NCBI GenBank assembly: GCA_017416805.1
Contig: JAFQBB010000019.1
Coordinates: 34,642-98,641, forward strand
Reading direction: 5' to 3'
DNA from: Bacteroidaceae bacterium
GTDB taxonomy: Bacteria > Bacteroidota > Bacteroidia > Bacteroidales > Bacteroidaceae
DNA: 64,000 nucleotides
Shown: piece after piece, positions 5,091 through 63,930 of the stretch
Layout: every line of letters starts with the position of its first letter
Numbering within the stretch: the stretch's first letter is position 1
Position numbers and translations under genes: made by a program
Notes under the pieces: model-generated
Seen by the model: the letters and a program-made list of their open reading frames with translations, nothing else
Databases searched by the model: none
Told to the model about the DNA's origin: nothing

Positions 5091-5231
5091 CAAAGAACGA
5101 AGCGGTATCTCCCTTTATCGGATTACCCCGAAAACCTGGTTGTAACGTTGTCCTTCGATTTGTCGAAATATTAGGTTTTTCTGCCATTTGGTTGAAAGTA
5201 TGCCCGATACAAGAAAACTGGCCTAAAAAAC

Positions 5232-5309
5232 GAACATATGTTCAAGAACCAATGAACATATGTTCAAGTGCCAACGAACATATGTTCAAGTGGCCATGAA
5301 CATATGTTC
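5232..5309. repeat. Four-palindrome array 1 (GAACATATGTTC x4, 22-bp period)
   Basis: The perfect 12-bp palindrome GAACATATGTTC occurs at 5232-5243, 5254-5265, 5276-5287 and 5298-5309. The period is exactly 22 bp, so every spacer is 10 bp; the spacers differ but all start with AAG. The array lies in a 540-bp gap between convergent units (the 112-residue gene and the tRNA cluster). Open frames across it are artefacts. It shares its layout, but not its sequence, with the arrays at 17.97 and 32.26 kb. Confidence 0.9.
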
Positions 5310-5500
5310 CTATTTTCTCCCTAATTTCAACCAAATTACAGAAAGAACCAAATTATTATGGCATGTTACAGATACACCCCAAGAAGAGATAGGGGAAAAT
5401 GGGTTGCAACTTGTTTTTCGGACTAATCAGTCATTTGTTTACAACCGGGTTTCCGACTGACTTCATTAAATGACTATCCCTAGATTAAAATCAATATAAA

Positions 5501-15434: not shown

Positions 15435-17846
15435 TTACTTCATGATTGTCTCCACCGGCCTTTCCTTGGCCGCACGCCAGCTCTGTACGGTGACGGTGAG
15501 GCAGACGACAATCGCCACGATGAGGAAGGCCACGCCGAAGAGCCACCAGTGCATGGGGGTGCGGTAGGCGAACGACTCTATCCACCTATTATATAAGGTA
15601 TAAGCCACGGGGGCGGCCAGAATGAAACAGACCATGAGCGTGCGGAGGTACTGCATGTTGAACATCACGAGGATGCCGCGTGTGGTAGCACCGAACACTT
15701 TGCGGATGCCAATCTCCTTACGCTTGGCGCGTGTCTCGAAAAGGACAAGGCCGAAGACTCCGATGAGGGGAATGAGGAGGGAGACTATCGCGCCGACAAG
15801 AAGGAGTTTCAATTGTTTCATTTCGTTGGCATAAGCCTGACCGAGCACATCATCAGGCTTGCAATAAGTCAATTTACACTGTCCTTCAGAGATTTTCTGA
15901 TTTTGCTCGTCAATAAAGCGGATAGCCTCATCAACTTTGCTGGGAGAGGCCACACGCACAACAAAGTTAGAGCCCTGACCTCCACCAGAACAAATGGCCA
16001 TGGGAGAGATTTCATTGCGGAGACTCTTGTGGTGGATATTCTCCATAAAGCCGACAATTTCATGATTTCCTACAACATCGTGCAGCTTCAAACCAAATTG
16101 TTGGCGGGCCGCTTCGTTGAAGATTGCCACATCCTTGTCTTCGTCTTCGGCACGGAAGTTGCGTCCTTCTGTCACTTTGATTCCAACCGTAGTCAGAAAG
16201 TTGTACCCTGAATATTCCGCATTGAATGCTATATTTCGGCCATTGTGCTCACGTCCCCATCCCTGAAATTGGTCTTGCCCTAAAACTGCGCTTGACCACG
16301 ACACTTCACTGATAGCAGGAGAGCTCTTTATCGCCTGCATCATGGGGTCAAGGTAATTGAACCATTTGAACCGATGCGTCTTTATCAGATAGTCTTCGGA
16401 GACTTCTACATAAACCACCAAATCGCGGTCGTACCCTACGGAGGAGGTGCGTATATAATAATGTTGGGCAGAAAAGAGAAGTAACACCAACAGGATGACC
16501 AAAGAGACCGTAAACTGAAACGCAATCAGCACACGACGGAACATCTGACCGGCGGGCGAAAGGGCAAAGTTCCCGTTTATCACCAAAGCAGGCTTGCGTG
16601 TGGTCAGATACCAGGCAGGATAGCAACCGGCCACAACAGGAAGCAGCATCATCAAAGCGAGCATTATCAGAAGCGTCTCGCCATTCTTGGCAAAAGCAAG
16701 GTCACACTTCAGCAAGTCGTTCAAGAATCCCAAGTGAATGATGACATTCATCAAAAGCATCGATAAAGTGATTGCCATCAAGGTGTTGAAGACTGCTGTT
16801 TTCAACATCTTCCACCTAAGCGAAGCCGACTTTGCCCCAAGGATACGCCGCACATTGACCTCCTTTATCTGATAAGGCACCATGGCCATCGCAAAATTGA
16901 CATAATTGATGGCGGCAATCACTATCACCAACAATGCCACCAAAGTCAAGGCCCACACCAAAGTCTCATTCCCATTGCGCTTGCCAAAAAACATATCTTC
17001 AAATCTGTCATCCTTATGATGCTCGTTCTGAATGAAATAAACATCATGCAAAGGGATGAACGTAAAATGGGAGGCAGTTTCCCTCAAAAGAGTGCTGTTT
17101 GCCAAAAGTTCCTCCGAGATGGCCTCACTTTCCGCTCCTTCGCGCAATTTGACAAACAGACAATGATTCCAACTCCCCTCATCTTTCCATAGTTCATCCT
17201 GCTGTTGTTCGCTCAAGCATCGGTACACTTCGTTTTCCATGTGGCTGTTGGTGGGAAAGTCCCTGTAAACCGCACCAACGTTCACTTCCGTATAGTGCTT
17301 GTCCCATAGTCCTTTCACCCGACATTGCCGGCCGACATAAGAGTCTGCTTCGCCGAAGAGTTTTTTGGCCAAACTCGAAGAGATGAATACATTGTGCGAA
17401 TCGCGAAAAGCGGCCGTATCACCCTCGAGAAGGTCAAACGAGAATACATTGAACAGTTCAGGTGTGGAGTAACGGATGTTTGCCATCAAGGGTTCAGCGC
17501 CTTCATTCTCCACAGGGATAAATTCCTTTTCTCCATCCAGGTAATATATCCCTGCATGGCTTTCAAACTGTTGGCTGCTTTTGACAATCTCCTCCATGAA
17601 AGAGGCAATGTAGGTGTCTTGTTCATCCCTTATCCCAAATTCCTTGAATGCTTCATCAAACTTCTTATTCCGATGAAACACCTGACACACCCTGTCCGCA
17701 TCCTTGTGGAAGCGGTCAAAGGTGACGTGCCACATCACTTCTGCCATCAGCACGTAGAAGATGACGAATGCCAGACTGAGGCCCAACAGATTGAGCCAGA
17801 AGGCCGCACCGCGTGCGGCGAAGAGGTTTTTCAAATAATCTTTCAT
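15435..17846 (-). CDS. ABC transporter permease of the MacB/FtsX type
   Basis: An 803-residue inner-membrane protein. After an N-terminal span (residues 15-37), a large periplasmic MacB_PCD domain follows (40-280), then three spans (about 295-315, 345-365, 395-415). A second half repeats the pattern, with a span near 435-460, a second periplasmic domain and three C-terminal spans (about 680, 730, 770). The segment RKEIGIRKVFGATTRGIL before the last spans is typical of FtsX. Such 800-residue duplicated permeases are numerous in Bacteroidetes and normally work with a MacB-like ATPase, which is not next to this gene. Substrate (peptide, lipoprotein or mechanotransmission) is unknown. Confidence 0.88.
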   Translation of the reverse strand: MKDYLKNLFAARGAAFWLNLLGLSLAFVIFYVLMAEVMWHVTFDRFHKDADRVCQVFHRNKKFDEAFKEFGIRDEQDTYIASFMEEIVKSSQQFESHAGIYYLDGEKEFIPVENEGAEPLMANIRYSTPELFNVFSFDLLEGDTAAFRDSHNVFISSSLAKKLFGEADSYVGRQCRVKGLWDKHYTEVNVGAVYRDFPTNSHMENEVYRCLSEQQQDELWKDEGSWNHCLFVKLREGAESEAISEELLANSTLLRETASHFTFIPLHDVYFIQNEHHKDDRFEDMFFGKRNGNETLVWALTLVALLVIVIAAINYVNFAMAMVPYQIKEVNVRRILGAKSASLRWKMLKTAVFNTLMAITLSMLLMNVIIHLGFLNDLLKCDLAFAKNGETLLIMLALMMLLPVVAGCYPAWYLTTRKPALVINGNFALSPAGQMFRRVLIAFQFTVSLVILLVLLLFSAQHYYIRTSSVGYDRDLVVYVEVSEDYLIKTHRFKWFNYLDPMMQAIKSSPAISEVSWSSAVLGQDQFQGWGREHNGRNIAFNAEYSGYNFLTTVGIKVTEGRNFRAEDEDKDVAIFNEAARQQFGLKLHDVVGNHEIVGFMENIHHKSLRNEISPMAICSGGGQGSNFVVRVASPSKVDEAIRFIDEQNQKISEGQCKLTYCKPDDVLGQAYANEMKQLKLLLVGAIVSLLIPLIGVFGLVLFETRAKRKEIGIRKVFGATTRGILVMFNMQYLRTLMVCFILAAPVAYTLYNRWIESFAYRTPMHWWLFGVAFLIVAIVVCLTVTVQSWRAAKERPVETIMK

Positions 17847-17960
17847 AAATTTGGTATGTTTTAAAGTCCTTTTTTCTATTGCTTCACTCTCTTTTTGGTT
17901 TTGCCTAAGGGAAAAGTTGGTTTGCCTTGCTCTTTTTCCGTTTTGCCTTTAGTCAAAAGT

Positions 17961-18042
17961 TTAATCATCGACGATAACTATGTAATCATCGTCGATAACT
18001 ATATAAACATCGTCGATAATCATGTAATCATCGACGATGATT
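17961..18042. repeat. Four-palindrome array 2 (CATCGWCGAT core x4, 21-bp period)
   Basis: Palindrome cores CATCGACGAT or CATCGTCGAT are centred at 17971, 17992, 18013 and 18034, exactly 21 bp apart. With an 11-bp unit the spacers are all 10 bp. The last copy extends to a perfect 17-bp palindrome (18026-18042). The array lies in the 550-bp gap between the divergent permease and porP genes. The gap also holds a possible porP promoter (TATTTTTG 18280-18287) and nothing else I can support. Confidence 0.9.
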
Positions 18043-18279
18043 AAAGTTTTCGCATTAGTCAGACAAGTTTTTGCTGGTGTCAAACCGATTTCTCTCCGTA
18101 GCATATTCATTTTTTCTTTTCTAAAGAATGGAAACGTCCCCATGAAAAGAGGAAGAAACCCTTCATTTCTACTCCACAAAATTAGGATTCCGAATAATTA
18201 CCTCCAAGAAAAAATCGAAAAATCGTCTTTTTGAGAGTAAAAGTGTCCAAAAATTGGACACGGGTTTTCAGGAAATGTG

Positions 18280-32258: not shown

Positions 32259-32344
32259 CCCCACGCGTGGGGTACCATCATACCCCACGCGTGGGGTATC
32301 GATATAGGGCACGCGTGGGGTGCAAAGGTACCCCACGCGTGGGT
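32259..32344. repeat. Four-palindrome array 3 (CCCCACGCGTGGGG x4, 24-bp period)
   Basis: Copies at 32259-32272 and 32283-32296 are perfect 14-bp palindromes (16 bp with flanking A/T). Copies at 32307-32320 and 32331-32344 have two and one changed bases on one arm. Starts are exactly 24 bp apart, giving 10-bp spacers that start with T and end with A. It lies between the convergent acyl-CoA ligase and rubrerythrin genes, 17 bp after the terminator. The remaining 180 bp up to the rubrerythrin stop hold no other feature. Confidence 0.92.
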
Positions 32345-33308: not shown

Positions 33309-35003
33309 ATGGAATATTCATTTTATGATTTCTTCAAGCTGTTAGGCTCGTTGGCATTGTTCCTCTACGGAATGAAAATAATGAGTGAAGCTCTGCAGAA
33401 ATTTGCAGGAGACCGTTTGCGCAGTATCCTTACAGCAATGACCACAAACCGTGTGACGGGAGTGTTGACCGGTATGCTTATCACTATGCTTATCCAGTCC
33501 TCATCAGCCACAACCGTCATGGTAGTCAGTTTTGTAAATGCAGGCTTGCTCACATTGGCCCAATCCATAGGTGTAATCATGGGTGCCAACATCGGAACCA
33601 CTGTGACGGCCTGGATTATCTCAATTCTTGGTTTCAAGGTCAGTCTGGCCGATTATGCCCTCCCGCTTTTGGCCTTAGGAGCCATTCCTGTGCTTTTCGC
33701 ACAAAATAGCAACAAGAAATCTATCGGTGAATTCATTTTCGGTTTCTCATTCCTTTTCATGGGCTTGTCCATGCTTCAGAGCAATGCGCCCGACTTGAAG
33801 CATAATCCCGAGATGTTGGCCTTCCTGCAGAACTATACCGATATGGGGTTCTTCTCTGTCATCCTCTTCGTCCTTATCGGTACGGTATTGACAATGATTG
33901 TGCAAGCCTCAGCTGCCACCATGGCCATCACGCTGATTATGTGTGCCAACGGATGGATATCCTTTGAGCTGGGAGCAGCCTTGGTGTTGGGTGAAAACAT
34001 CGGAACTACCATCACCGCCAACTTGGCCGCGATTACGGGTAACACACAAGCCCGACGAGCAGCTATGGCCCACTTGATGTTCAACGTTTTCGGTGTAATT
34101 TGGGTACTGATTGTCTTCTCTCCTCTGACAAGCGGTATCACATGGTTTGTCCACAATGTATTGGGCAGTACCGACACTGAAGTGGCCGTACCTTTGATGC
34201 TTTCGGCCTTCCACACAACGTTCAATGTATGCAACGTACTCCTCCTCATCTGGTTTGTGAAGTTTATTGAGAAGACGGTATGTTTCCTTATTCCCACCAA
34301 GCAAGACGAGGACGAGGAGTTCCGTCTCCGTTTCATCTCGGGTGGTATGCTTTCTACGGCTGAGCTTTCCATCCTGCAGGCCCGTAAAGAGATTAACCTT
34401 TTCGCACAACGTACACACAAGATGTTCGGCATGGTCCGTTCCTTGATGACCGAAAAAAACGACAGCGATTTCAACAAGACCTTCAGTCGTATTGAAAAAT
34501 ACGAAAGCATCAGCGACAACATGGAGTTGGAAATAGCCAACTACCTCAATCAGGTATCAGAAGGACGGCTCAGTTCTGAGAGTAAGTTGCAAATCCGTGC
34601 CATGCTGCGCGAAGTTACAGAGATAGAAAGCATTGGCGACAGTTGCTACAACCTGGCTCGTACTTTCAACCGCAAACACAGTGGCAAGGAGGACTTCACC
34701 CTGAAGCAATATGAGCGTATCGGACAGATGATGAGCCTTACTGACCAGGCATTGGAGCAAATGATCCGTCTGTTGGAGAATCCTACACATACCGATGTTA
34801 ACCAGACATTCAACATCGAAACCGAAATCAACAATTACCGTAACCAGTTGAAAAACCAGAACATCCTCGATGTGAACAATAAGGAATATGGTTACCAAAT
34901 GGGGGTCCACTACATGGATATTATCGGCGAATGCGAAAAGCTAGGCGACTATGTAGTTAATGTGGTGGAAGCACAAACCGATGTACGTGAGAAAAAACAA
35001 TAA
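33309..35003 (+). CDS. Na/Pi cotransporter family protein with PhoU-like domain
   Basis: A 564-residue inner-membrane protein. Residues 1-320 contain two inverted Na/Pi repeats, with QSSSATTVMVVSF and GANIGTTVTAW in the first and VQASAATMAIT and GENIGTTITAN in the second. These QSS and GxNIGTT motifs bind Na+ and phosphate. The C-terminal 200 residues are helical and PhoU-like (RTHKMFGMVRSLM ... YCEKLGDYVVNV-type pattern) and may regulate transport. A -7-like TATTTTTG is at 33240-33247. A terminator follows. Phosphate as substrate is by family. Confidence 0.9.
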   Translation: MEYSFYDFFKLLGSLALFLYGMKIMSEALQKFAGDRLRSILTAMTTNRVTGVLTGMLITMLIQSSSATTVMVVSFVNAGLLTLAQSIGVIMGANIGTTVTAWIISILGFKVSLADYALPLLALGAIPVLFAQNSNKKSIGEFIFGFSFLFMGLSMLQSNAPDLKHNPEMLAFLQNYTDMGFFSVILFVLIGTVLTMIVQASAATMAITLIMCANGWISFELGAALVLGENIGTTITANLAAITGNTQARRAAMAHLMFNVFGVIWVLIVFSPLTSGITWFVHNVLGSTDTEVAVPLMLSAFHTTFNVCNVLLLIWFVKFIEKTVCFLIPTKQDEDEEFRLRFISGGMLSTAELSILQARKEINLFAQRTHKMFGMVRSLMTEKNDSDFNKTFSRIEKYESISDNMELEIANYLNQVSEGRLSSESKLQIRAMLREVTEIESIGDSCYNLARTFNRKHSGKEDFTLKQYERIGQMMSLTDQALEQMIRLLENPTHTDVNQTFNIETEINNYRNQLKNQNILDVNNKEYGYQMGVHYMDIIGECEKLGDYVVNVVEAQTDVREKKQ

Positions 35004-38953: not shown

Positions 38954-41900
38954 ATGAAACTCTATGCAAGATTGACCGCACTGGTGATGTGCGCACTGAT
39001 GCTTCCGGCATTAGCGATGGCCAAGGGCTACGACAGAGAGAAGTACAACTTTAATCCCGAATGGTTGCTACACGTAGGCGACTTGGAAGGAGCGGAGAAA
39101 ACCGATTTTCCTGATGCAGATTGGGAGAAAGTGACCCTGCCTCGTGCACACAACGAGGATGAGGTGTTCAAGGTTGACATCAAACACCTGACCGACACCA
39201 TCGCCTGGTACCGCAAGCACTTCCGTCTGCCCAAGACCGCCAAGAACAAGAAGGTGTTCATCGAGTTCGAGGGTGTGCGCCAAGGAGCCGACTTCTACCT
39301 GAACGGCCACTATCTGGGTCTGCACGAGAACGGCGCCATGGCCGTAGGCTTCGACCTGACACCCTATATCAATTATGGGGGTGAGAACGTGATGGCTGTC
39401 CGCACGGACAACAATTGGGACTACCGCGAAAGGGCCACCAACACCAAGTACCAGTGGAGCGACCGCAACTTCAATGCCAACTACGGCGGACTGCCCAAGA
39501 ACGTGTGGTTGCACGTGACGGACAAACTCTATCAGACACTGCCCCTCTACAGCAACATGAAGACAACGGGTGTCTATGTCTATGCCAAGGACATACAGGT
39601 AAAGAGCCGCAAGGCCATTATCCACGCCGAGTCGGAGGTGAAGAATGAATACAAGAAAAACCTGACCGTGGGCTATGAAGTAGAGGTAGTGGACCTCGAC
39701 GGCAAGTCCGTAGCCACATTCAACAGCGAGCCGGTGGTGATTGCCAAAGGGGAGACTGCCACCTTGAGTGCCGAAGCACCGCTCAGCGGCCTGCACTTCT
39801 GGAGCTGGGGATATGGTTATCTGTATAAGGTAAAGACCCGCCTCATCGTGGACGGTGATGTGATGGACGAGGTGGTGACCCGCACAGGTTTCCGCAAGAC
39901 ACGCTTTGGCGAAGGCAAGGTGTGGATCAACGACCGCGTGTTGCAGTTCAAGGGGTATGCCCAGCGCACCAGCAACGAATGGCCGGGTGTAGGCTTGAGT
40001 GTACCTGCCTGGATGAGCGACTACAGCAACGGACTGGCCGTAGAGGGAAATGCCAACTTCTTCCGCTGGATGCACATCGCAGCCTGGAAGCAGGACATCG
40101 AGAGTTGCGACCGCGTAGGTGCCATGCAGATGTTGCCAGCCGGCGATGCCGAAAAGGATCGCCAAGGCCGCCAGTGGGAACAACGCACCGAACTGATGCG
40201 CGATGTCATCATCTATAACCGCAACAATCCGAGTGTCATCTTCTACGAATGTGGCAACGAGGCCATCAGCCGCGAGCACATGATAGAGATGAAAGCTATC
40301 CGCGACCAGTACGACCCTCACGGCGGACGTGCCATCGGTAGCCGCGAGATGCTGGACATCCGCGAGGCAGAATATGGCGGTGAGATGCTCTACATCAACA
40401 AGAGCTGCCACCACCCCATGATTGCTACCGAATATTGCCGCGACGAGGGACTACGCAAGTATTGGGACAACTACAGCTACCCCTACCACAAGCATGGCGA
40501 TGGAAACACAGGCTACCATTCGACTGTGACCAATACTACGGCTCCCAAGAAAGATGCCAGTGCCTATAACCAGAACCAAGACCTGCTGACCGTAGAATGG
40601 GTACGCCGTTGGTACGACTACTGGCGTGAACGTCCCGGTATGGGCCGACGGGTGAACTCTGGTGGTGCCAAGATTATCTTCAGCGACACACAGACACACT
40701 TCCGCGGTGCAGAGAACTACCGTCGCAGTGGCGTGGTAGATCCCCTGCGCATACCCAAGGACGGATACTTTGCCCACAAGGTAATGTGGAACGGTTGGGT
40801 AGATATCGAAGAACATGGCACACACATTGTGGGACATTGGAACTATGAAGGCAGACCCCATCCCGACCTTCCCCAAGGGGAAGGAGTAGATACTCCGCAA
40901 AATGCTAAGCATGACATTTCACTCCCCTCCCTTGTGGAGGGGCAAGGGGGAGGGTCCGCCGTCATCAAACCCGTCTATGTAGTCTCCACCGGCGACAAAG
41001 TGGAGCTCTTCATCAATGGAGAATCACAAGGTTTCGGTCGTCAGGACTACCGTTTCCTCTATACCTTCGACAGCATCCAGTGGAAGCCGGGAACCATCGA
41101 AGCCGTATCGTATATAGTGACAAGTGACGAGCTACAAGCTACAAGTAATCCTGCGGCACAAAACTCGTCACTCGTAGCTCGTAACCCATCACTCAACGTG
41201 ACAAGTGACGAGTTACAAGCTACAAGTAATCCTGCGGAACAAAACTCGTCACTCGTAACTCGTAACTCATCACTCAAAGAGGTGAGCCGTGCTGCCCTGA
41301 AAACGGCAGGCAAGCCTCATCACCTGAAGCTGACACGCATGGCCAATCCGGCAGGCAGCTTTGCCGATGGACACGATATTGTAATGGTACAGGTAGAGGT
41401 AGTGGATGCCGAGGGTAACCGCTGCCCGCTGGCTAACGACATGGTAGATTTCACGCTCGAAGGTCCGGCCGAATGGCGTGGCGGTATCGCACAAGGTCCC
41501 GACAACTATGCCTTTGCCACCTCGTTACCCGTAGAGTGTGGTATCACCCGCGTATTGGTACGCTCGACCACCGAAGCAGGTGAAGTAAGACTGACAGCTA
41601 AAGCAGAGGGATTAGGTACTGCCACAGAGAATTGGACAACCATCCCCGTAGAAGTGGTGAACGGACTGAGCAAGCACTTCCCCGGCGAACTCCTCCCCTG
41701 CCGTCTGGAGCGTGGCGAGACACCGCTCACTCCGTCGTACACCGACAAGAAGGTGGATGTACAGATTGTGGATGTAAAAGCCGGTGTCAATCAGGAAACA
41801 GCTACCAACAGTTTCGACGACAACGAACTGAGCGAATGGCGCAACGATGGCAAGCTCAATACAGCTTGGATTACCTACAAGCTCAACCGCCGCGCTGCAG

Positions 41901-42300: not shown

Positions 42301-42450
42301 GGGGATGTGTCAAAATGCTTTCTTTTCATTCTTTAGACGCGGATGACGCGGATGACGCAGATAAATTATAACCTATCGGGTATAATAATCAAGAAAAATC
42401 CGCGTCATCCGCGTCATCCGCGTCTAAAAAGTTAATTTTGACACACCCTC
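42301..42450. repeat. MITE-like palindromic element, copy B
   Basis: Terminal inverted repeats GGATGTGTCAAAA (from 42303) and TTTTGACACACCC (42436-42448). Inner arms beginning AGACGCGGATGACGCGGATG pair almost perfectly over about 27 bp with 42400-42425; the apex is AACCTATCGGGT. It is preceded by A8G8 (42289-42304). It fills most of the 310-bp gap between the GH2 and recombinase genes. Confidence 0.9.
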
Positions 42451-44896: not shown

Positions 44897-45112
44897 TTTT
44901 AAAGAGAGATAAAGGGAGATAGATGGAGATAAAAGGAGACGTTTCCTTGAGCGGATCGAAAAAAGGCCAAATGTGTTGCTTGTAGGGGCATCCCTTGTGG
45001 GTGCCCGGTGATATGCCTGCATCACATTTCCGGAGGGTGTGTCATAATTAACTTTTTAGACGCAGATGACGCGGATGACGCGGATTTTTCTTGATTATTA
45101 TACCGATAGGTT
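44897..45112 (+). repeat. Long direct repeat, left copy (about 210 bp)
   Basis: Nearly identical to 63723-63929. It begins TTTTAAAG.GAGATAAAGGGAG, includes CTTGAGCGG(A/T)TCGAAAAAAGGCC-type sequence, a GGGCA/TGCCC hairpin, and the first half of the MITE-like copy. The two copies face the same way and bracket the fimbrial locus. Confidence 0.88.
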
Positions 45113-45182
45113 ATAATTTATCTGCGTCATCCGCGTCATCCGCGTCTAAAGAATGAAAAGAAAGCATTTTGACACATGCCCC
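45032..45182. repeat. MITE-like palindromic element, copy C (inverted relative to B)
   Basis: Starts GGAGGGTGTGTCA and ends TTTTGACACATGCCCC. Inner arms of GACGCGGATGACGC type pair over about 27 bp with apex ACCGATAGGT. Opposite orientation to copy B. Together with 44811-45262 it accounts for most of the 700-bp gap before the fimbrial operon; a composite tail with CACTAGTAGCTAGTAG follows at about 45230. Confidence 0.9.
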
Positions 45183-53062: not shown

Positions 53063-54202
53063 ATGAAAAAAAGAATAGCTTTACTTTCAATCAGTTCAAT
53101 GTTGCTGTTACTGAATGCGTGCAGCGACGTCTCATCACCGGCTCCCGCCATGGGAGCCGGTGATGAGGTGGCTGTACATTTCTGCGCCTCCATGCAGCCT
53201 GCCGTGGAGGTGACTCGTGCGAAGGTGACGGGCACGGACCTGACACCTCTGAAGGACGAGGGAGTAGGCATCTACGGCATAGGTCTGACAACTGAAGAGG
53301 CCGCTGCCGGATATGAGTGGGAAGAGGCTGCATGGCCGACCTTCCACCGCCAGATGAAGAACAAACAATATATTTTTGAAGAAGGAAATACACTGTCGCC
53401 TGCCGGCGGCAGACTTGACTATCACCCCTCGCGGAGCGACTCGGCACTGGCTGTATATGCCTATTGGCCCTACAGCGGAGAGGCTGACAATGAGGGACAT
53501 ATAGCAGTTGACCTGACAGAGCAGTACGACCTGCTGTATAGTGGAAAAATAATCTCGCAAGCCAACGCGGACAAGAAGTTCGACCCCATAAACCTGAAGT
53601 TCAAACATGCACTGGGGGCTGTGGCCTTCAAGTTCTGGTCCGAAAACAGCGAACTGCAAGGAAAGCAGCTCACCCGCATTGCCATCCATACGGACTATAA
53701 CCTGCAACAGGTCAAGATGCGCATTGCCGACGGCACTTTCAGTACCACAACTGCCACCCCCGGCATCTACGAGATAGACCTGACCGAAGGGGGAACGAAA
53801 GAGGCAACAATAGCATCGGCAAACAGTGGGGAGATACAACCCGTGGGAGAGGTAATGCTGCTGCCCGGCGAGGGAATCAGCCGCATCGTCCTCTATTGGG
53901 AAGGAAACAATGACCCCGAAGCCGGATGCCGCATATATACCCGAGGGACGGGACAAACACTCGCCCTCAAAGCCGGAGTATGCCAGACACTTACATTCAA
54001 ATGCATCGACAACGGCTACGCAGGCGAAGACGGCGAAATCGAAGAAGGAGAGATGATTGTCACCCCACGACCGAACGAAATAGAACAAACCGAAGGAGAA
54101 GCCGGCGAAATCGAAGAAGGGGAAATGTTCGTCACTCCCCAACCAAACGAAATGGAAGAAAACTCCAGTGAAGGTGCCGTAATCGAAGAGGGGAAAATGT
54201 AG
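53063..54202 (+). CDS. Mfa-like fimbrillin family lipoprotein 4 with repeated IEEGEM tail
   Basis: A 379-residue FimA-superfamily lipoprotein (lipobox LLNAC, Cys20), Arg site VEVTRAKV (Arg52). Pilin core: ALAVYAYWPYSGE, LKFKHALGAVAFKFW, and a last strand GQTLALKAGVCQTLTFKC. After the core the protein has a tail of about 57 residues with three copies of an (E)IEEGEM/K unit separated by VTPxPNE-type spacers. The tail is rich in Glu and Pro and resembles the end of the DUF3575 protein of the same operon (EIEEGELFIDF). Probably the last gene of the main pilin transcript, as 545 bp of repeats follow. Confidence 0.8.
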   Translation: MKKRIALLSISSMLLLLNACSDVSSPAPAMGAGDEVAVHFCASMQPAVEVTRAKVTGTDLTPLKDEGVGIYGIGLTTEEAAAGYEWEEAAWPTFHRQMKNKQYIFEEGNTLSPAGGRLDYHPSRSDSALAVYAYWPYSGEADNEGHIAVDLTEQYDLLYSGKIISQANADKKFDPINLKFKHALGAVAFKFWSENSELQGKQLTRIAIHTDYNLQQVKMRIADGTFSTTTATPGIYEIDLTEGGTKEATIASANSGEIQPVGEVMLLPGEGISRIVLYWEGNNDPEAGCRIYTRGTGQTLALKAGVCQTLTFKCIDNGYAGEDGEIEEGEMIVTPRPNEIEQTEGEAGEIEEGEMFVTPQPNEMEENSSEGAVIEEGKM

Positions 54203-54747
54203 AGGATTTAAGAATTAAAAGAATGAAGGAGTGAAGGAATGAAAGTTTTAAACTTTAAACTTTAAACTTTGAACCTTAAACAAAAGGAGTGTAGGAGTGC
54301 AGGAGTATAGGAGTGTAGACGATAGTGCTGCTTGCGATGAAGATTGAAAATAAAACGCAGAGGCGCAGAGACGCAGAGAACGGACGCTGCACGCAGCGTC
54401 CCTACAAAAGTCTCTGAGTCTTTTAAAAGAAAAAAGTCTGAGTGCCGCAATCCACTAGTCGCTAGTCACTAGTCACTCAAAGCCTCCGCGTTCTCGAGAG
54501 AGCGAATGAGGGCGAAGCGCTCAAAACGACTCCGAGTCCTCAAACAGGAAAAGAAAGAGCCTCTGTGTCTCTGTGTCTCTGCGTTCTAAATGAAGAAAGA
54601 AGTTCCTTTTGAAGGAGATAAAAGGAGATAAAGGGAGAAGTTTCCTTGAGCGGAGCGAAAAAAGGCCAATAGTCCTGCTTGAACTTTGAACTTTGAACTT
54701 TAAACTTTGAACCTTGTAAATGGTAAATTGTACATGAAATAAAGAAT
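54203..54747. repeat. Mosaic of short repeats between pilin 4 and the second DUF3575 gene
   Basis: No gene. Contains heptamer runs of TTTAAAC/TTTGAAC (about 54243-54280 and 54680-54720), AAATAAAACGCAGAGGCGCAG-type sequence (about 54345-54385) shared with 44.87 kb, the hairpin GGACGCTGC/GCAGCGTCC (54384-54403), CACTAGTCGCTAGTC repeats (about 54450), and a copy of CTTGAGCGGAGCGAAAAAAGGCC (54644-54667). Confidence 0.8.
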
Positions 54748-58564: not shown

Positions 58565-59250
58565 GAAGGTGAATACCCAAAACTCTCCCTCTGTTTATAG
58601 AGGGCGTAGCAAGGCCTAAAGGAGGATTGACTAAATGTCAATCCGTGCCGCAACGAGGAGAGCACAGTGCTCTGTGCGATGGAGGCCGTAGGCTACCCCG
58701 AAGGGGGAGGGGGTTAAAAGACATCCCCACCACCCTACCAATAACGGTAGAACGGTGACCACCCAAAGCTCTCCCTCTGTTTATAGAGGGAGTACCCGAA
58801 GGGGGAGGGAGTTAAAAATACATATCTTGTATAATCCGAACTCCTCCACCGCAAGCGGTCCCCCTCCTCTATAAACAGAGGAGGAGCTTCGGGAGCACAG
58901 GCGGAAAAGAGATTGGGAAAAGGTTGTTGGTCGCTCAAAATAACATCCCCACCACCCTACCAATAACGGTAGAACGGTGACCACCTAAAGCTCTCCCTCT
59001 GTTTATAGAGGGAGTACCCGAAGGGGGAGGGAGTTAAAAGACATCCCCACCACCCTACCAATAACGGTAGAACGGTGACCACCTAAAGCTCTCCCTCTGT
59101 TTATAGAGGGAGTACCCGAAGGGGGAGGGAGTTAAAAGACATCCCCACCACCCTACCACAAACGGTAGAACGGATGACCACCCAAAGCTCTCCCTCTGTT
59201 TATAGAGGGAGTACCCCAAAGGGGGGAGGGAGTTCCAATAAAGGGAGACC
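58539..59250. repeat. Tandem 98-bp hairpin repeats downstream of the DUF559 gene
   Basis: ACATCCCCACCACCCTACCA starts at 58721, 58943, 59041 and 59139; the last three are 98 bp apart. Each unit has ACGGTAGAACGGTGA followed by a hairpin CTCCCTC/GAGGGAG (loop TGTTTATA) and GTACCCGAAGGGGGAGGGAGTTAAAA. A diverged copy starts inside the end of the DUF559 gene at about 58539. No true coding frame: the open frames here are repeat translation. Confidence 0.9.
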
Positions 59251-63728: not shown

Positions 63729-63930
63729 AGGAGATAAAGGGAGATAGATGGAGATAAAGGGAGAAGTTTCCTTGAGCGGAGCGAAAAAAGGCCAAATGTG
63801 TTGCTTGTAGGGGCATCCCTTGTGGGTGCCCGGGGATATGCCTGCATCACATTTCCGGAGGGTGTGTCATAATTAACTTTTTAGACGCAGATGACGCGGA
63901 TGACGCGGATTTTTCTTGATTATTATACCC
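63723..63930 (+). repeat. Long direct repeat, right copy (about 210 bp)
   Basis: Near-identical, same-orientation match to 44897-45112. It starts at the stop codon of the 670-residue gene, so repeat and gene are contiguous. Includes CTTGAGCGGAGCGAAAAAAGGCC, a GGGCA/TGCCC hairpin and the left half of MITE-like copy D. Confidence 0.88.

Follow-up and report, generated by a model that had tools for sequence, protein, structure and literature searches.

Intergenic palindrome arrays with a pitch near 22 bp in Bacteroidaceae

Three arrays and the families to which they belong

The stretch of DNA analysed here (the window) comprises 64,000 nucleotides, positions 34,642 to 98,641 of contig JAFQBB010000019.1, from the assembly GCA_017416805.1 of a Bacteroidaceae bacterium (the source genome, G000; a 3.16-Mb draft in 64 contigs, 91% complete). 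It carries three intergenic arrays, each with four short units that are wholly or largely palindromic, and we suggest that these arrays are examples of a class of palindromic minisatellites which lie between the genes of Bacteroidaceae and have unrelated palindromes, from 2 to 14 units and a pitch of about 22 bp. The features on which the analysis turns are the following:

5232-5309, plus strand: array 1, four GAACATATGTTC units at a pitch of 22 bp
5174-5348, plus strand: miniature inverted-repeat transposable element (MITE) of the GAACATATGTTC family, the coordinates spanning both terminal repeats; left repeat GGTTTTTCTGCCATTTGGTTGAAA, right repeat rich in CAACCAAATTACAG, both with 2 mismatches to TTCTGCAATTTAGTTG
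17966-18039, plus strand: array 2, four ATCGWCGAT units at a pitch of 21 bp
17886-18121, plus strand: approximate extent common to the array 2 region and the array copy at locus L046, judged by eye and with ends that no target duplication defines
15435-17846, minus strand: MacB_PCD/FtsX permease gene, a paralogue of which (38% identity over 495 columns) adjoins the L046 array copy
about 32259-32344, plus strand: array 3, four CACGCGTG cores at a pitch of 24 bp

A general scan of the window for palindrome arrays returned these three and no others, and five Markov shuffles returned none. The four units at each site were confirmed; the units are less uniform than had been proposed, in that the units of array 3 agree only in the 8-bp core CACGCGTG, which occurs four times (unit 3 reads GGGCACGCGTGGGG and unit 4 CCCCACGCGTGGGT), and the strict palindrome of array 2 is 9 bp long (ATCGWCGAT) and occurs in three of the four units. 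A fixed 10-bp spacer in all three arrays, the central claim of the original prediction, depends on where the palindromes are cut and calls for correction: with perfect palindromes taken as the bounds, arrays 1, 2 and 3 have median spacers of 10, 12 and 8 bp. The spacers of array 1 are AAGAACCAAT, AAGTGCCAAC and AAGTGGCCAT, the third being inverted relative to most other copies. Array 2 lies between the gene for the MacB/FtsX-type permease (minus strand) and a porP/sprF gene (plus strand), and array 3 is flanked on either side by convergent genes for an AMP-binding enzyme and a rubrerythrin.

Each window array is a member of a dispersed family. The source genome contains 23 arrays of the GAACATATGTTC family, four of the ATCGWCGAT family and two of the CACGCGTG family, the last two having the same asymmetry in unit 3; the ATCGWCGAT copies that terminate contigs C10 and C50 hardly differ, and a single locus may have been assembled twice here. 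Spacers of the GAACATATGTTC family are conserved by position (e.g. AAGTGCCTCT, AAGTGCCAAC and GTGGCCATTT), and by eye a spacer is flipped between its palindromes in some copies. The congener G006 has nine ATCGWCGAT arrays, all with a pitch of 21 bp and some with the palindromic spacer GATTACGTAATC, and G024 has one further match to this family with a different spacing.

The vehicle by which the GAACATATGTTC family spread through the source genome is a MITE whose terminal repeats are of the ISL3 type. The element carrying the array is 160-175 bp long and terminal repeats near GGYTCTTCTGCAATTTAGTTGAAA flank the array; calling repeats within 5 mismatches of TTCTGCAATTTAGTTG, both are present at 10 of the 23 arrays, one at 12 and none at one. 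Transposition by ISL3-family elements leaves target duplications of 8 bp. Among 20 elements with both ends, taken from both palindrome types described below, the 8-bp flanks match at at least 6 bases in nine, four of them perfectly, compared to 3.2% for mispaired flanks, and the copying mechanism that had been envisaged for the arrays is, for this family, that of a MITE. Exact terminal ends were found in 9 of 301 genomes of the Bacteroidaceae, namely the source genome, 6 of 14 congeners and 2 members of another genus. A 1.56-kb element in the congener G012 has both MITE ends (0 and 1 mismatch) around a broken gene with pieces of an ISL3-type transposase (Pfam PF01610 and PF14690), and the scanner found no array in it; in G202, MITE ends lie at contig breaks that lead into coding sequence which by eye is like that of the G012 element. 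An IS1595-type MITE was considered and rejected: the only PF12762 gene of the source genome (L063) has no such ends within the 3,450 bases examined.

Other repeats lie close to these elements. The window MITE, L027 and L035 have about 60 bp in common to the left of the terminal repeat (5120-5174 in the window), suggesting that a larger repeat carries these three copies. The dispersed repeat GGAAATCGTTAACATACA directly abuts truncated MITE ends (in the flanks of L030, L032, L035, L036 and L064, from the source genome and G006). At window positions 42336-42424, 45059-45146 and 63884-63910, tandem GACGCGGAT triplets face ATCCGCGTC triplets and form long hairpins; because these hairpins are flanked by GTGTGTCAAAA-like ends, and the hairpin element also lies beside MITEs in L056 and L082, it resembles another MITE family.

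The families differ in their genomic setting. The GAACATATGTTC family avoids promoters in the source genome, where its MITEs occupy 12 convergent, 9 tandem and no divergent gaps, with 2 at contig edges (n = 23), compared to 27 convergent, 92 tandem and 35 divergent among background gaps longer than 120 bp (n = 154; Fisher 0.0002 and 0.007). Elsewhere, 14 GAACATATGTTC arrays are convergent, 19 tandem, 5 divergent, 7 inside open frames and 10 at edges, a convergent bias that is weaker than in the source genome (Fisher 0.04 versus background). The ATCGWCGAT family shows the opposite pattern, with copies in divergent promoter regions: its arrays lie upstream of two paralogous permease genes (in the window and at L046), and the L047 copy lies between a sigma-70-type gene and a GH43 gene. 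This setting supports the earlier suggestion that, of the three, it is the ATCGWCGAT array whose position would allow regulation. The quasi-inverted flanks of the ATCGWCGAT copies (TTTTGCC.../...GGCAAAA) are, by eye, clearest in L045 and L047.

Exchange of palindromes and the constancy of the pitch

In one MITE lineage, TATCTTAAGATA has taken the place of GAACATATGTTC without any shift in the register of 12-bp palindromes and 10-bp spacers. Fourteen further loci have end-like matches; in nine of these, and at the right-hand match in a tenth, there is a MITE that has ATCTTAAG palindromes instead. Seven of the ATCTTAAG-type MITEs were aligned and have four 12-bp slots separated by 10-bp spacers at the same positions as in the GAACATATGTTC MITEs; their slots are filled by CATTATAAGTTC, TATCTTAAGATA, TATCTTAACTTC and TATCTTAAGATA, of which the second and fourth are perfect palindromes and the first and third imperfect. 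Between the last palindrome and the right end of the element, the GAACATATGTTC and TATCTTAAGATA types are homologous, and L083 of G004 carries three perfect copies of the TATCTTAAGATA-type palindrome. That geometry outlives sequence, as had been proposed, is thus seen in the four slots that both words fill within a single lineage, and the anticipated change of palindrome under an unchanged geometry is found in these sister MITEs with the same ends. As the word can be swapped while the spacing stays, the spacing itself seems to be the conserved feature. By eye, L060, L081, L089 and L086 resemble a third, ATATA-rich MITE type.

The array also occurs apart from this carrier. Scanning contigs of GTDB species for two adjacent GAACATATGTTC units gave 61 stretches, of which 55 are from Bacteroidota (almost all ruminant-gut records), 2 are Bdellovibrio-like and 4 are from Acidimicrobiia. 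None of the 55 Bacteroidota loci has both MITE ends and eight have one, near the rate at random places (73/550); the lack of any locus with both ends implies that array and carrier can be separated. Locus L251, also among the 55, has an inner flank that by eye is like that of the source-genome MITE. In the isolate RUG14675, four GAACATATGTTC copies lie inside another dispersed element, in which GCCTTTAGGC-like palindromes form a second row at 22-bp intervals. The spacers of GAACATATGTTC arrays have a polar consensus around GGC. Copy number was expected to be exactly four, and this is true of 22 of the 23 GAACATATGTTC arrays of the source genome if degenerate units are counted, and copies with fewer units are known from L042 (two) and L055 (one); in other species the number ranges from 2 to 14, with four in 20 of 52 arrays.

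The constant among the arrays is a pitch near 22 bp rather than a 10-bp spacer. In a list of 20 arrays drawn from the window, from samples of the source genome and the congener G008, and from loci L083 and L183, the pitch is 22-23 bp in 16 arrays and 21, 24, 26 and 18 bp in the other four, and the spacers between perfect palindromes range from 8 to 19 bp; the window families themselves differ in pitch (22, 21 and 24 bp). Palindrome arrays number six in 400 kb of the source genome besides the window and nine in 400 kb of G008, with none in shuffled sequence, and their units include CATGCATG, TATCWGATA, CAATTATTG, GAGATCTC, GTATWATAC and CACGSCGTG. Looser palindrome scans gave two arrays in 312 kb from ten other genera and one in 252 kb from ten other families (0.67 in shuffles).

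The same step is found without reference to palindromes. Tandem Repeats Finder, applied to noncoding DNA for periods of 10-60 bp, gave period 22 for 13 of 55 repeats in the source genome, 8 of 13 in G008, 7 of 14 in four congeners, 8 of 22 in G019, 6 of 15 in ten other genera and 20 of 53 in the ruminant loci (GAACATATGTTC family removed), compared to none of 10 in ten other families and none of 1 in Escherichia coli K-12. Pooled, this is 62 of 172 in the six Bacteroidaceae sets versus 0 of 11 in the controls (Fisher 0.009). Repeated noncoding 8-mers of the Bacteroidaceae, with the GAACATATGTTC family masked, were counted 59, 38 and 41 times at distances of 22, 44 and 66 bp, compared to 38 at distance 21, a further peak of 34 at 14 and mostly 5-20 at other distances; in the controls, which are smaller samples, the counts at the three distances were 2, 2 and 0. 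Repeated 7-mers agree with this pattern. The family-wide 22-bp comb is the new and bolder observation, beside the MITE that bears a minisatellite. Palindromic units are in excess over shuffled sequence in the source genome (14/25 versus 4.5), G008 (6/9 versus 1.2) and the rumen loci (12/22 versus 5.2).

Tandem repeats with other steps are also present. Direct repeats of 7 bp (AACTCGT, TTTAAAC, CACTAGT and TTGAACT) lie at 41117-41277, 54247-54281, 54453-54477 and 54679-54716 of the window, an intergenic 98-bp unit with the internal hairpin CTCCCTCTGTTTATAGAGGGAG is repeated at 58943-59234 (2.9 copies at 96%), and 72-bp in-frame repeats at 54022-54200 lie near the end of the open reading frame 53063-54202, in a glutamate-rich tail. 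Among the ruminant-gut loci, L224, L225, L239 and L273 have 11-bp tandem repeats (e.g. CCTATGCTACG), half of the 22-bp pitch, and L269 has rows of 7-bp to 11-bp repeats.

Possible origins of the pitch

The reading that we favor, with slightly less than even confidence, is that these are palindromic minisatellites carried by MITEs, with a phasing of two turns that would suit a putative dimeric protein arranged in rows on one face of the helix. In this scheme, (i) MITEs mobilized by an ISL3-family transposase would be one vehicle by which arrays are copied, (ii) a palindrome at every second helical turn would place dimer sites on one face of the DNA, (iii) a dimeric DNA-binding protein would load cooperatively on these same-face sites, and the arrays would be kept for that reason, and (iv) the palindrome would track the sequence preference of the bound protein, and the pitch could not vary. 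A protein lattice on the DNA would be the most likely reason for a fixed pitch combined with a free sequence. A more far-reaching version, which we regard as unlikely, is that a sequence-independent 22-bp lattice, built of unrelated and often palindromic units at steps of two turns, extends across the noncoding DNA of the Bacteroidaceae, is spread in part by MITEs and serves for the assembly of fast-evolving dimeric proteins, such as a silencing, partition or anti-invader coat; the palindrome would then be a changeable address on the fixed scaffold that the pitch provides, as suggested by the exchange in register within a single MITE lineage.

Several observations weigh against the protein lattice and its ISL3-type vehicle. 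No binding protein was found, LexA being the only one sought. A palindrome scan of 310 kb from four congeners returned no arrays, and palindromic units are not in excess in G019 (3/11 versus 3.35) and only slightly so in ten other genera (2/9 versus 1.45) and the four congeners (3/8 versus 1.45); the 22-bp peak is present in these sets all the same, so the pitch does not require palindromes. Imperfect units decay uncompensated, none of 18 in the source genome and 1 of 68 elsewhere being still palindromic. The named rumen loci are a biased sample, having been fetched by means of the array itself. The window MITE lacks a target duplication (3 of 8 bases match), the evidence for an ISL3 partner consists of the one broken copy in G012 and the contig-end fragments of G202, and the 91% complete draft of the source genome has no PF01610 gene, so that the mobilizing enzyme is one that we infer.

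Because non-palindromic units share the pitch and imperfect units are uncompensated, we rate mutation as the source of the pitch almost as likely as a protein lattice. The arrays may then be a functionless satellite, a possibility that we entertain seriously if tentatively. Slippage, or template switching driven by hairpins, would generate such arrays; MITEs and promoters would carry them along as hitchhikers, and they would be tolerated where promoters are unharmed. The pitch would reflect the geometry of the replication or repair machinery or, with turns of about 11 bp, that of supercoiled DNA, rather than binding. Slippage alone predicts neither one pitch for unrelated units nor the in-register exchange of a 12-bp palindrome, and the controls from other taxa, though smaller, are without the pitch. 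Yet palindromic and non-palindromic units have the same pitch, the GAACATATGTTC MITEs of the source genome avoid divergent promoters (0/23), copy number falls in unit steps (L042, L055) and spacers are, by eye, flipped in some copies, all of which speaks for a satellite. The imperfect units bear on both sides: their decay without compensation fits a satellite, whereas correction through hairpins should preserve palindromes and 0 of 18 are palindromic.

Less likely than either a protein lattice or a mutational origin are explanations from RNA hairpins and from LexA. We consider it improbable that the arrays are RNA-level devices, i.e. terminators that act in both directions, or 3'-end hairpins, where convergent genes end. 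The convergent bias of the GAACATATGTTC MITEs, the A-tract that precedes the array and the T-tract that follows it in MITE copies, and the folding of the arrays would speak for this: all 56 arrays with at least three perfect units outfold dinucleotide shuffles on both strands (mean Z -7.7). That the GAACATATGTTC family is a row of LexA (SOS) boxes is very improbable; the idea arises because GAACATATGTTC fits the Gram-positive box GAAC-N4-GTTC (the accessible part of PMC11442139 gives this as the SOS box and lists CGAACATATGTTCT as an S. aureus SOS box), and it is opposed by the other palindromes, which do not fit this box, by the position of MITE copies at gene ends and not promoters, and by the LexA DNA-binding domain (PF01726), which is absent from the source genome and present in 2 of 11 genomes searched. 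The four Acidimicrobiia/Microthrix loci with a GAACATATGTTC pair (L221, L238, L242 and L255) resemble multi-box promoters by eye, with several GAAC-N4-GTTC boxes in a row, and are probably SOS promoters.

If the pitch is imposed by a protein, the noncoding DNA of a dominant gut family would bear the footprint of an undescribed nucleoprotein system whose binding words could be read straight from the genome. If it stems from a mutational process, it would be a rare case of a quantized step in tandem duplication (22, 44 and 66 bp). Either way, the MITEs are intergenic sites that can move, and the arrays of one family stand in divergent promoters beside paralogous permease genes.

Relation to known repeat systems

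The arrays have features in common with several kinds of repeats. As in clustered regularly interspaced short palindromic repeats (CRISPR), the repeats are regularly spaced and partly palindromic; in line with the original statement, these arrays differ from CRISPR in that their unit is 22 bp and their spacers are of about 10 bp and alike between copies by position instead of unique and of repeat length. As in repetitive extragenic palindromes and bacterial interspersed mosaic elements (REP/BIME), short extragenic palindromes are clustered and present in many copies per genome; unlike REP/BIME, the arrays show no common tagged hairpin, although no search aimed at it was made, and they have a fixed two-turn pitch and DDE-type terminal inverted repeats with target duplications. 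The TAACTGA repeats of Beggiatoaceae, as described in the portion of PMC4679880 available, are likewise short intergenic direct repeats with a fixed step at many loci; their units are 7 bp long and not palindromic, and they are closer to the 7-bp and 14-bp repeats of the window than to the 22-bp arrays. MITEs of the ISL3 family are, like the elements described here, short, non-coding and bounded by terminal inverted repeats, with 8-bp target duplications and ends in common with an ISL3-type element, here the broken one of G012; they differ from them in the central array of regularly spaced palindromes, which in other species is found without these ends.

The nearest known kind is BrickBuilt of Porphyromonas gingivalis, a minisatellite in a MITE, and the earlier statement that no element like this had been described was therefore too strong. 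According to the available text of PMC4596501, BrickBuilt has a 23-nucleotide tandem unit, AGAYCATARTATCCTCTCRTRTG, IS5-type ends, GAGACCTTTGCA, and 19 dispersed copies, and lacZ fusions gave bidirectional promoter activity; the word stem "palindrom" does not occur in that text. The BrickBuilt unit has no match in the window at up to 3 mismatches and no exact match in the other loci examined, and the BrickBuilt end has no match in the window at up to 1 mismatch. As far as that description goes, both are minisatellites of almost the same unit length within a dispersed intergenic MITE of the order Bacteroidales, with a variable number of units. BrickBuilt has its terminal repeats in common with a full-length insertion sequence, to which the broken ISL3-type element of G012 may correspond here; the elements described here differ in that their units are palindromic, their ends are of the ISL3 type and the unit has been exchanged within one MITE lineage.
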